Shown one piece after another: positions 1 through 3,971 of a DNA stretch of 51,670 bases. The notes beneath the pieces were generated by a model. The model saw nothing but the letters and a program-made list of their open reading frames with translations. It was not told where the DNA came from and made no database searches. Both the position numbers and the translations under genes were made by a program. This DNA comes from Vulcanisaeta sp. (GTDB taxonomy: Archaea; Thermoproteota; Thermoprotei; Thermoproteales; Thermocladiaceae): assembly GCA_023256215.1 (NCBI GenBank), contig JAGDXB010000113.1:1-51670 (forward strand), in the 5' to 3' direction. Within the stretch, counting starts at the first letter, position 1. Each line of letters starts with the position of its first letter.

Positions 1-364
1 TAACCCTCTTCGGGTAACCCTTAATCTCAAGCCTAATCTTATTATCATTACCCCTAGGCCTACGCCAGTGCTCGCCATGGGCAACCCTCAGGAATCTCCA
101 CTCATCCATCCTCATCCACCTAGGCTCTCTCCTCTCCATTAGAATCCTAATCCTCAATAAACGCCTCAACTTACCACTAAGTGAGACCCTAGGTCTAGGA
201 AGCTTAACCTCGACAGGCTTAGCCTCAGCCGGCTTAGCGACAGCCTCCTGGCCCTGCTGAGTCACTACCTGCCTCTCAGCGCCCTTCTCCTCAGTGGCTT
301 GCTGGGTCTGCTGAACACCCTGCTCAGTAGCCTGCTCCTTCTGCTTACTCTCCTCCGTGGACAT
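1..364 (-). CDS. rpl32e: 50S ribosomal protein L32e (partial, runs off the window start)
   Basis: Reverse-strand translation MSTEESKQKEQATEQG...RRPRGNDNKIRLEIKGYPKRV; the WRRPRG-DNK-RL-KGYPKRV block is typical of L32e, with an acidic/Q-rich N-terminal extension. Confidence 0.85.
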   Translation of the reverse strand, partial: MSTEESKQKEQATEQGVQQTQQATEEKGAERQVVTQQGQEAVAKPAEAKPVEVKLPRPRVSLSGKLRRLLRIRILMERREPRWMRMDEWRFLRVAHGEHWRRPRGNDNKIRLEIKGYPKRV

Positions 365-406
365 CGCAGAACCACCCAATTAATGCCTTTTTAAATTTAC
401 CAGCTC

Positions 407-799
407 TCAATAAACGTAGGCTATCAACACGCCACCAACATTTAACTGCCTAGCCTCTAAATGCGATATTATGCCCTTCGACGTGCTTAGTATCAAAATA
501 CCAACATTCCTAGCGGGTAAGTACTTCTCCTCCCACTTCATAAGCTCAGAAACCTTAACACTATGCCTAGGCTTTATGGCCCCAACATCGTTTATTTTAC
601 CGAGAAGCTGAACCTTAAACTTACCACCCCTACCATCCTCAATAAACTCAATCTCGCCTACATAGCCATACCTCTGCATAACCCTAAGAACATTACCCAC
701 AAGCTTAGAAGAAGGCCAAATAACCACCTCCCTATGGCCCCTAACCTCCGCATTCTTAATCATCGTCAACGCGTTGGAAAGAACATCAAGTAAGACCAT
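407..799 (-). CDS. rps8: 30S ribosomal protein S8 (true start probably the internal Met [18 protein letters not shown], not the ORF-track start at 967)
   Basis: [14 protein letters not shown] and C-terminal [31 protein letters not shown] are S8 signatures; the 5' extension overlaps a C/D-box sRNA and is non-coding-like. Confidence 0.93.
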
Positions 800-854
800 C
801 AACCCAACGACAAAGCAATAAAATAAAAACTTTACTACAGACAATAACAATGAA

Positions 855-903
855 CTGATGAGCGGGAGTAAGGCTGAGAAGTGATGACGTGGTCCTTCAC
901 TGA
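855..903 (+). ncRNA. C/D-box sRNA (2'-O-methylation guide)
   Basis: CTGATGA(C)-12 nt-CTGA(D')-3 nt-GTGATGA(C')-12 nt-CTGA(D); exact archaeal dual-guide architecture in the rps8/mannosidase intergenic region. Confidence 0.82.
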
Positions 904-1037
904 TATGTAATAATGATATAACATGAACATTGTATTCACCATAATATAAAGTATGGCAATTAAACATTTCATATCATAAAGATTGTATTTTTAACATAGG
1001 ATTTAAAAGTAAGGAATATCGTATTTCGTGATAAGGC

Positions 1038-3971
1038 ATGACAGATATTTTTATGAGAGACGTCAATGGTGTTAGGGTTAAGCTGTTCTATCTTGAGGCT
1101 GCCTCTATCATGGGTGTCGATACTATCAATCTTGAAGCTTGTGGTGGTTCTCTGTGTGGTGTTGCGGTCGTTAGGGATTTTGGCGAACCCTGGCTTTACT
1201 TCGATGTCATTGGTGAGGGCACACTAAAGGTTGGCGATCTGCAATTCGCTGTTTTTAGCTATGGCGGTGAGGGTGAGAGCAGGTGGGTTAAGGTATCTCC
1301 TGGCAAGCTCTCTCTTTCCTTGACTCTATCTCCCGTTAGGATGTTCGGTGAACGTAGGGTTAGTTTTAATGGCGCTTACATCGTCTATAGGGAACCAACA
1401 CTATTCAACTTTGTCCTTAGAGCTAAGCTGCTCCTCGACGTGGCTGAGGCATCCGATGAACTTAGGCATGATTATCTGGAGATCCTCAATAGGGCTCTTG
1501 ATGTTGTACCATTGAGCTCAATAGCTAATTGGCAGTTAGAATTTGCCATTAAGGCCCATGTGGTTGATCCTCCTGGCTTTGTTAGGGCGATCTTCGATTA
1601 TTATGATGCTAAGGAATTGACGCATATGGAGCCACCTAATTTTGATGAGTTACGTAGGAGTGCTCAGGAGGGACTTAAGGTACTTGAAGATGGAATTAGG
1701 GAGTTGAGGATTAGGAGGGGCCATAGGGGTATTGTTTATGTTGCTGGTCATGCCCATATTGATCTTGGTTGGTTGTGGAGTAGGGACGTGACTAAGGAGA
1801 AGGTTAAGAGGACCATAATAAACGTACTATCTCTGCTTCAGTCATACCCAGAATTGATATTCCTAGTATCTAATATGGCATACCTTAAATGGCTGAAGGA
1901 CGAGGGTGGGGAATTATGGGGTAGGGTTAAGGATGCGGTCAAGGCCGGTAAGGTGATCCCTGTTGGTGGTATGTGGGTTGAGAGTGATGTTAATTTGCCT
2001 GGTGGTGAGTCTTTGGTTAGGCAACTCCTGTACGGGCAGAGGTTCTTACTTAGGGAGTTTGGTTCGATAACCGAGGTTGGTTGGCTGCCGGACACCTTCG
2101 GATTCCCAGCATCACTACCACAAATACTAAGGAAGGCGGGCATTAAGGTGTTCTTTGAGCATAAGATGTATTGGAACACCGTGAACAAGTTCCCATACTC
2201 AGTATTCCTATGGGAGGGGATTGATGGTTCCGTAATACCGACGGTTAACTACGCAACGTACGGTGCCGACCTAACGCCTAGACAAATAACCAGGGCTTGG
2301 GCTGACCACACAAGTCCCGAACTTCCCGCCTTCTTGCCCTTCGGTAAAGGAGATGGTGGCGGAGGCCCCACGTGGTTAATGCTCGAGAGGTATAGGGCTT
2401 ATAACGATTTACCTGGCTTACCGAGATTAATAATGAGTGACTTAAGGGACTTCGTGAACACTTTATCTAATGATAATTCATTACCGAGGTGGAGAGGCGA
2501 GTTGTACCTAGAAATACATAGGGGTGTCTATACAAATGGTATTAGATTGAAGCAGTTGGTTAGGAGACTTGAGACCAGGTTAAGGGAGTTAGAGATGTGG
2601 AGTGTTATCGCCAATGTTCGTAAGAGCTATGAGGAGCTTTGGTACCCACTACTTGAGGCTGAGTATCACGATCCAATGGGCGCAACATCAACTAAGGCTG
2701 TCTATGAGGAAGTCATTAATGAGCTCGAGGATGATCTTAAGAGGGTTGAGAGTGAGTTAATTAATACGCTTAGGAATATTCTAGGCTCCGGTACATACAT
2801 ATCTGTGGTTAATTCCTTGCCTTGGTCACGTAGGGAGTTGGTAATAATTAAGGAACCGCTTAAGGGATTACCTATGCAGAGGGTTGATGATGGTTATTTA
2901 GTGCTTGTTGAGGTTCCTGCCCTTGGCTTTAAATCCTTCGAGCCCGGTGACGGTATTTCCTCGGGTGATGTGCACGCTGGTGATAATTACATAGAGAATT
3001 CGATAATTAAGGTAGTCTTTGACGGCTCGCTTAAGGTCTTTGATAAGGAGGGCAATAGGTGGGCTGTGGTAGATGGCTACTTAATGGCTTGTGAGGACAT
3101 GCCGAGTCGTTGGGATGGTTGGGACATAGATGCCTATTACAGGAGGGTTTGCTGGAGGCTGGAGCCTGGTGATGTTAGGGTTGTTGAGAATGGGCCTTTG
3201 AGGGGCTGTATTGAGGTTCATTATCGATTTAGGAGGTCTAGTGTTAAGCAGAGGATCTGTGTGACGGCCTTTAATAGGCGTGTTGATGTTTATAATGATG
3301 TTGATTGGAGGGAAAGACTTACGTTGCTCAAGGCGGTGCATAAACTAGGTATTTTTGGGCATAATGCCTCCTTCGAAATACCGTATGGAGTTATTGACAG
3401 ACCAACTAGGCCTAGTAATTCATGGGAGGTGGCAAAATTCGAGGTTCCCGCTCTTCGTTGGGTAGATGTTTGGGATCCTGATTACGGGATTGCCATCATT
3501 AATGATGGTAGGCAGGGATACTCCGTTGAGGAGAATGTGCTATCAATAACACTGCTTAGATCGCCAATATACCCAAATCCATTCCTTGATTACGGGCATA
3601 GCAATTTCGTATATGCAATATACCCACACATGGGTGATTGGAGGGTAGCCCAAGTGCCTAGGAGGGCTTATGAGTTTAACCAACCGTTAATTACGATTTA
3701 CGGGACAGAGAATAAGGAGGCGTCCTACGTTGAGATAGGTAATCCTGCCATAATGCTTGAGGTGCTCAAGTGGGGTGAGGACTCAGGTATTGTGATGAGG
3801 CTTTATGAGACTTACGGTATGAATGCATGTACTGATGTGAAGGGCTTCCTAGGCGATAAGGCTGTTGAGGTTGATTTGCTCGAGCTTAATAAGTACGGTG
3901 ATGTAAATACTAGTAAGGTCTGCCTTAAGCCATACGAAATAAAGACGTTGTTGTTCAGTAAATCACGATGA
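1038..3971 (+). CDS. Alpha-mannosidase, glycoside hydrolase family 38
   Basis: GHAHIDLGWLW, GGMWVESDVNLPGGESLVRQLLYGQRF and GWLPDTFGFPASLPQI are GH38 catalytic-domain motifs; 977 aa. Confidence 0.92.
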   Translation: MTDIFMRDVNGVRVKLFYLEAASIMGVDTINLEACGGSLCGVAVVRDFGEPWLYFDVIGEGTLKVGDLQFAVFSYGGEGESRWVKVSPGKLSLSLTLSPVRMFGERRVSFNGAYIVYREPTLFNFVLRAKLLLDVAEASDELRHDYLEILNRALDVVPLSSIANWQLEFAIKAHVVDPPGFVRAIFDYYDAKELTHMEPPNFDELRRSAQEGLKVLEDGIRELRIRRGHRGIVYVAGHAHIDLGWLWSRDVTKEKVKRTIINVLSLLQSYPELIFLVSNMAYLKWLKDEGGELWGRVKDAVKAGKVIPVGGMWVESDVNLPGGESLVRQLLYGQRFLLREFGSITEVGWLPDTFGFPASLPQILRKAGIKVFFEHKMYWNTVNKFPYSVFLWEGIDGSVIPTVNYATYGADLTPRQITRAWADHTSPELPAFLPFGKGDGGGGPTWLMLERYRAYNDLPGLPRLIMSDLRDFVNTLSNDNSLPRWRGELYLEIHRGVYTNGIRLKQLVRRLETRLRELEMWSVIANVRKSYEELWYPLLEAEYHDPMGATSTKAVYEEVINELEDDLKRVESELINTLRNILGSGTYISVVNSLPWSRRELVIIKEPLKGLPMQRVDDGYLVLVEVPALGFKSFEPGDGISSGDVHAGDNYIENSIIKVVFDGSLKVFDKEGNRWAVVDGYLMACEDMPSRWDGWDIDAYYRRVCWRLEPGDVRVVENGPLRGCIEVHYRFRRSSVKQRICVTAFNRRVDVYNDVDWRERLTLLKAVHKLGIFGHNASFEIPYGVIDRPTRPSNSWEVAKFEVPALRWVDVWDPDYGIAIINDGRQGYSVEENVLSITLLRSPIYPNPFLDYGHSNFVYAIYPHMGDWRVAQVPRRAYEFNQPLITIYGTENKEASYVEIGNPAIMLEVLKWGEDSGIVMRLYETYGMNACTDVKGFLGDKAVEVDLLELNKYGDVNTSKVCLKPYEIKTLLFSKSR

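Follow-up and report, generated by a model that had tools for sequence, protein, structure and literature searches.

A C/D box dual-guide sRNA gene of Vulcanisaeta, divergent from rps8 and with predicted targets in 16S helix 23

The sRNA gene and its conservation

The window, that is the whole stretch of 51,670 nucleotides analysed here, constitutes an entire contig of the MAG of a hot-spring archaeon of the genus Vulcanisaeta, which comprises 138 contigs and is 87% complete. Close to its left end, in the gap between the gene for ribosomal protein S8 and that for a GH38 alpha-mannosidase, lies a complete C/D'/C'/D-box sRNA gene with two 12-nt guides (Table 1), in the order CTGATGA-GCGGGAGTAAGG-CTGA-GAA-GTGATGA-CGTGGTCCTTCA-CTGA. 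The boxes follow the RUGAUGA/CUGA pattern at regular spacing, three of them perfectly and box C with a deviation at its first base only, and a strict four-box search of both strands of the 51.7-kb window yielded this single match. An earlier note on this DNA had described the boxes, the two 12-nt guides, the 3-nt D'-C' spacer and the deviating first base of box C, and sequence and layout are exactly as it gave them. The interval it assigned, 850-908, does contain the sRNA, but the RNA core is slightly shorter and lies inside it. It had also located the sRNA within an apparent 5' extension of the S8 reading frame, and the mechanically called S8 ORF (407-967, minus strand) indeed overlaps the sRNA in this way. 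Note that S8 homology in the relatives begins at the methionine at 799, and that the extension to 967 is therefore not coding.

Table 1. Features of the sRNA locus, in window coordinates
Feature	Position	Strand	Description
rps8 (ribosomal protein S8)	407..799	-	Pfam PF00410 (Ribosomal_S8); true start 799, not 967
rps8 promoter-like AAAGTTTTTAT element	824..837	-	position and direction with respect to rps8 as in the relatives
C/D box sRNA gene core	855..903	+	49 nt, spanning boxes C to D; one copy in each of ten Vulcanisaeta genomes
Box C	855..861	+	CTGATGA; first base C, against RTGATGT or RTGATGA in relatives; TGATG invariant
D' guide	862..873	+	GCGGGAGTAAGG; 8 Watson-Crick pairs (guide positions 4-11) with 16S UACUCCCG; predicted Am676
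Box D'	874..877	+	CTGA
D'-C' spacer	878..880	+	GAA, 3 nt
Box C'	881..887	+	GTGATGA
D guide	888..899	+	CGTGGTCCTTCA; 10 pairs (guide positions 2-11), one of them G-U, with 16S GGAGGACCAC; predicted Gm713
Box D	900..903	+	CTGA
GH38 alpha-mannosidase	1038..3971	+	downstream neighbour of the sRNA, same strand

An Rfam search returned nothing at the gathering threshold. Below it, boxes and spacing align over the full length with sR17 (RF01144), and also with sR14, sR9 and snoPyro_CD, sR17 being the best at 27.1 bits against a gathering score of 36. It is the boxes that produce these matches, not the guides, and as the guides of sR17 differ and the score stays under 36, the window sRNA is not a member of that family. 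The folding stability of the sRNA is no greater than that of shuffled sequences, and no excess over shuffles is expected of C/D sRNAs. A search of plasmid records found no match. The same genome encodes the methyltransferase partner, fibrillarin (PF01269, E=2e-102).

When the stretch 780-1040 was used as a query, the relatives returned a sharply bounded match at about 856-904 with 81-90% identity, and the flanks drift. As evidenced by a pattern search, exactly one copy is present per genome in 10 of the 12 genomes of the genus; the remaining two are incomplete, with one contig ending 35 bases upstream of rps8 in the first and no detected rps8 in the second. Boxes and guides are both conserved in the relatives: in the ten-genome alignment no change is seen in CTGA (box D), in TGATG within box C, in CTG within box D', in TGATGA within box C' or in GTGGTCCTTC within the D guide, and variation is found in the outer bases of box C, in the spacer and in the outer guide bases.

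A sequence model built from the Vulcanisaeta alignment matched four Caldivirga genomes with E-values from 1e-13 to 1e-10, at unrelated loci and with both guides recognisable; the window copy, which was part of the alignment behind the model, scored E=1.4e-15. A matching two-guide sRNA with the guides ACAGGAGTACAA and GGTGGTCCTTCA is present in a Sulfolobaceae MAG. Among 85,462 species genomes there were 21 exact matches to TGATGANGTGGTCCTNNNCTGA, 19 of them labelled as Thermoproteota/Crenarchaeota or as member groups thereof; as this search fixed the core, it shows the distribution of the core and not its conservation. The reading of the locus as a dual-guide C/D sRNA, put forward in the earlier note, is thus supported by conservation, by the Caldivirga homologues, by the box-level Rfam match and by the fibrillarin gene, and the gene is found upstream of rps8, where conservation was to be looked for, in nine other Vulcanisaeta genomes. 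It is a real and well-supported addition to the known class of archaeal C/D sRNAs, and an ordinary member of that class apart from its orientation relative to rps8.

Orientation relative to rps8

The nine Vulcanisaeta relatives with the gene all encode sRNA and rps8 on one strand; box D lies 44-45 bases ahead of the rps8 start, and most copies have a TATA-like CATTTAAA about 28 bases ahead of box C. In the window, a point that the earlier note had not raised, the two genes are on opposite strands, box C lies 55 bases from the rps8 start in divergent orientation, and no CATTTAAA-type TATA is evident ahead of the sRNA. The promoter-like element of rps8 retains its place and direction relative to that gene, and this A+T-rich stretch may also serve the divergent sRNA. 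In a tree of rps8 the co-directional genome G011 falls outside the other Vulcanisaeta, with modest support (82/65) and with inner branches that are not resolved, and the change in orientation therefore most likely occurred in the lineage of the window.

From the mannosidase on, positions 1038-46000 of the window are collinear with 734-784 kb of the relative G004. The latter has the order sRNA(+), rps8(+), L32e(+), about 8 kb of further sequence and mannosidase(+), and the distance from rps8 to mannosidase is about 8 to 13 kb in G004 and G007; the window has the order L32e(-), rps8(-), sRNA(+), mannosidase(+). Measured against the collinear block, the sRNA has therefore kept its direction, and rps8 and L32e have been reversed. 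A flip of the sRNA alone in its place was dropped as an explanation, since the direction of the sRNA relative to the long collinear block is unchanged. Comparison of window positions 1-1037 with 725-734 kb of G004 shows rps8 and L32e reversed and the intervening ~8 kb missing from its place relative to the 45-kb collinear block, with the breakpoint at the sRNA. Judged from these gene orders, a local rearrangement breakpoint is located at the window sRNA, and the order seen would result from an inversion that took in sRNA, rps8, L32e and the genes after them, with the small sRNA piece flipped back at the junction. The stretch 904-1037 between sRNA and mannosidase has no counterpart in the compared stretches of G004 or G007, and a search for repeats at the sRNA gene that would account for the rearrangement gave no convincing ones, and no strong ones flanking it. 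The homologue of the GH38 alpha-mannosidase is interrupted by frameshifts or stops in the Vulcanisaeta drafts G002, G003, G005 and G008, as pseudogenes or through sequencing errors.

Among the alternatives, the divergent order might be an artefact of MAG assembly, the real genome being co-directional. The window is, after all, one whole contig of an incomplete and fragmented MAG, no more than about 850 bases separate the sRNA and the breakpoint from the end of this contig, and rps8 is out of place with respect to the 45-kb stretch of collinearity with G004. A chimeric join, however, must by chance have returned rps8 and the single sRNA copy to within 55 bases of each other, whereas a rearrangement with a small reversed end piece needs no such coincidence, and we regard an artefact as rather unlikely.

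A further alternative accepts the sRNA family as real and takes the rearranged copy in the window for a decaying or silent relic that has lost its promoter. This would agree with an orientation unlike that of all relatives, with the missing TATA-like element, with two altered bases in the part of the D' guide that is otherwise conserved and with a box C that begins with C. All box cores and the entire D guide are unchanged, however, the D' guide still forms 8 pairs, and the consensus bases are present at the end of box C (A) and at the start of box C' (G). In addition, most archaeal C/D genes have no promoter of their own and their products are processed from longer transcripts (PMC7994747), and the rearranged copy could therefore stay active; it is presumably transcribed from the A+T-rich promoter region of rps8 or within a longer transcript. 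That the copy is a relic thus appears unlikely, and the locus presents a clear case in which the orientation of an sRNA gene has changed with boxes and D guide intact.

In another genus of the same family an unrelated C/D sRNA gene lies divergent from rps8 at a distance of about 50 bases; its guides fit the Vulcanisaeta 23S at about 2985 and 2912, 73 nt apart. Because of this second divergent sRNA, the gap upstream of rps8 might be a recurrent site for C/D sRNA genes. Taken together, we only tentatively propose that the orientation changed at the breakpoint with function retained, that the sRNA and the S8 mRNA start divergently from a shared A+T-rich element, and that the site is recurrent.

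Predicted targets in 16S helix 23 and proposed function

The 16S and 23S genes of the organism itself are absent from the MAG assembly, and targets were therefore assessed on the rRNA of relatives; helix 23 is identical among the Vulcanisaeta 16S genes that were aligned. With guide position 5 required to be paired, the best match of each of the two ~12-nt guides among the relatives' sense 16S, 23S and sampled tRNAs is 16S helix 23, and by the N+5 rule the duplexes listed in Table 1 place G713 opposite the D guide and A676 opposite the D' guide (E. coli 16S numbering, transferred through a gap-free stretch of the alignment). The earlier note had derived a G and an A as the respective nucleotides, which is right by the same rule, and had left the targets unplaced in rRNA and tRNA; both now fall into helix 23 of the relatives. 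Targets complementary to the full 12 nt, for which it had suggested searching, are not found in the relatives' rRNA, but the D duplex of 10 bp and the D' duplex of 8 bp are.

The two predicted sites are 37 nt apart on opposite strands of one stem, and judged from the 16S sequence G713 could pair with C677, adjacent to A676. Positions 1 and 12 of the D guide, which vary among the genomes, fall just outside its 10-bp duplex. The D' guide of the relatives pairs through positions 3-10 with GUACUCCC, and that of the window has lost the pair at position 3 and gained one at position 11, so that the total stays at 8. The longest run of consecutive Watson-Crick pairs is 8 for the D guide, within its 10-bp duplex, and likewise 8 for the D' guide, one short of the nine used by Dennis et al. 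as a criterion for prediction and not for definition of the class; for some linked double guides this rule is relaxed (PMC4644070). Pairing as good or better within 100 nt was reached by 0.4% of shuffled guide pairs, or by 1.8% under a looser sum criterion, and matches of single guides were common in the shuffles (17% and 43%). By itself the significance of the joint match is moderate. Other lineages add independent support: the best matches of the Caldivirga guides in Caldivirga rRNA are the same two 16S sites, and the guides of the Sulfolobaceae MAG fit both sites in the 16S of that MAG, with runs of 7 and 11 consecutive pairs.

Other candidate targets were discarded. A tRNA was rejected, as 7 pairs were the most that any of 68 ARAGORN predictions gave; these came from two Vulcanisaeta genomes, from selected loci, and include some duplicates. 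Matches of 13 nt to the D' guide were rejected because they fall on the antisense of 16S, and the scan on sense rRNA was used instead. The D' guide core of the relatives, GGGAGUACGG, is identical to a piece of the 16S sense strand that we take to lie near position 890 (E. coli numbering); this is probably a coincidence, and one that misleads strand-blind target searches.

The guides might of course act on a different RNA, be it an mRNA, 5S or another tRNA, the 16S match being fortuitous. The shuffles show that a match of one guide is not rare, and significant rRNA matches are missing for a third of the sRNAs in seven archaea (PMC4644070). Both guides match one and the same helix, however, the best tRNA match remains at 7 pairs, and the D core and its site are kept in Caldivirga and Sulfolobaceae and are found also in other Thermoproteota, where a different second guide likewise fits helix 23. 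We therefore hold a different target to be very unlikely. A chance box pattern in non-functional intergenic DNA is barely conceivable, for although the boxes are short, 200 Markov-1 sequences of window length contained no strict four-box match, and the strong cross-species conservation is limited to the sRNA.

The Vulcanisaeta gene thus very probably encodes a functional dual-guide C/D box sRNA of the archaeal kind that acts on 16S helix 23. What the analysis shows is the sequence, its conservation, its place in the genome and the complementarity of guides and targets in relatives; transcription, RNP assembly, methylation and chaperoning we infer. Against this reading stand the D' duplex of 8 bp, below the nine-pair rule, the C at the start of box C, the absence of an evident TATA element like that of the relatives ahead of the window copy, and the placing of the targets on rRNA of relatives. 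In archaeal C/D RNPs the box pairs are bound by L7Ae, Nop5 and fibrillarin, and methylation takes place at the target nucleotide that faces position 5 of the guide. The sRNA would assemble with these three proteins, its two guides would pair with both strands of helix 23, and 2'-O-methylation would be directed to A676 through the D' guide and to G713 through the D guide; two methyl groups on one 16S hairpin are the most likely outcome of its action. Since the strands bound by the two guides pair with one another later on, guide binding may also delay or chaperone the folding of helix 23. A gene missed by gathering-level Rfam annotation is thereby added, with concrete predicted targets.

Related sRNAs and guide modules

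With four boxes, two 12-nt guides, a 3-nt D'-C' spacer and both targets within 100 nt of one rRNA, the sRNA resembles the dual-guide sRNAs of Thermoproteales and Sulfolobales (Dennis et al. 2015, PMC4644070; Breuer et al. 2021, PMC7994747). Unlike these, the window copy is reoriented with respect to rps8 relative to its orthologues, and its D' duplex has only 8 bp. Double guides were predicted for 262 of 489 sRNAs in seven archaeal species, and dual guides with targets within 100 nt are the common archaeal type (PMC4644070).

In other Thermoproteota GTGGTCCT occupies the D' position and is combined with a D guide for 16S near 685, also in helix 23. The sRNAs L175, L184, L185 and L190 have GUGGUCCU beside D' and CUACCC beside D. 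Like the Vulcanisaeta sRNA they combine one guide for 16S G713 with another for helix 23; unlike it, they hold the shared guide in the D' position and aim the partner guide at about 685. The guide module has therefore been exchanged or has converged. A guide for the G713 site is common to Vulcanisaeta, Caldivirga, Sulfolobaceae and other Thermoproteota, and its partner guide changes, the module being kept and the sRNA genes reshuffled.

In L182, too, a D' guide for 16S G713 is joined to a D guide (CUACCC) for a site near 685, an apparent swap of guide modules. A group of Thermoproteota MAGs (L192, L193, L200, L201, L204, L206 and L212) shares a common sRNA-like half with the D guide GTGGTCCTCC, which is preceded by the strongly conserved stretch GGATGAGGGCCGGCCGGCTTACCTTACCCTTTTGAG.
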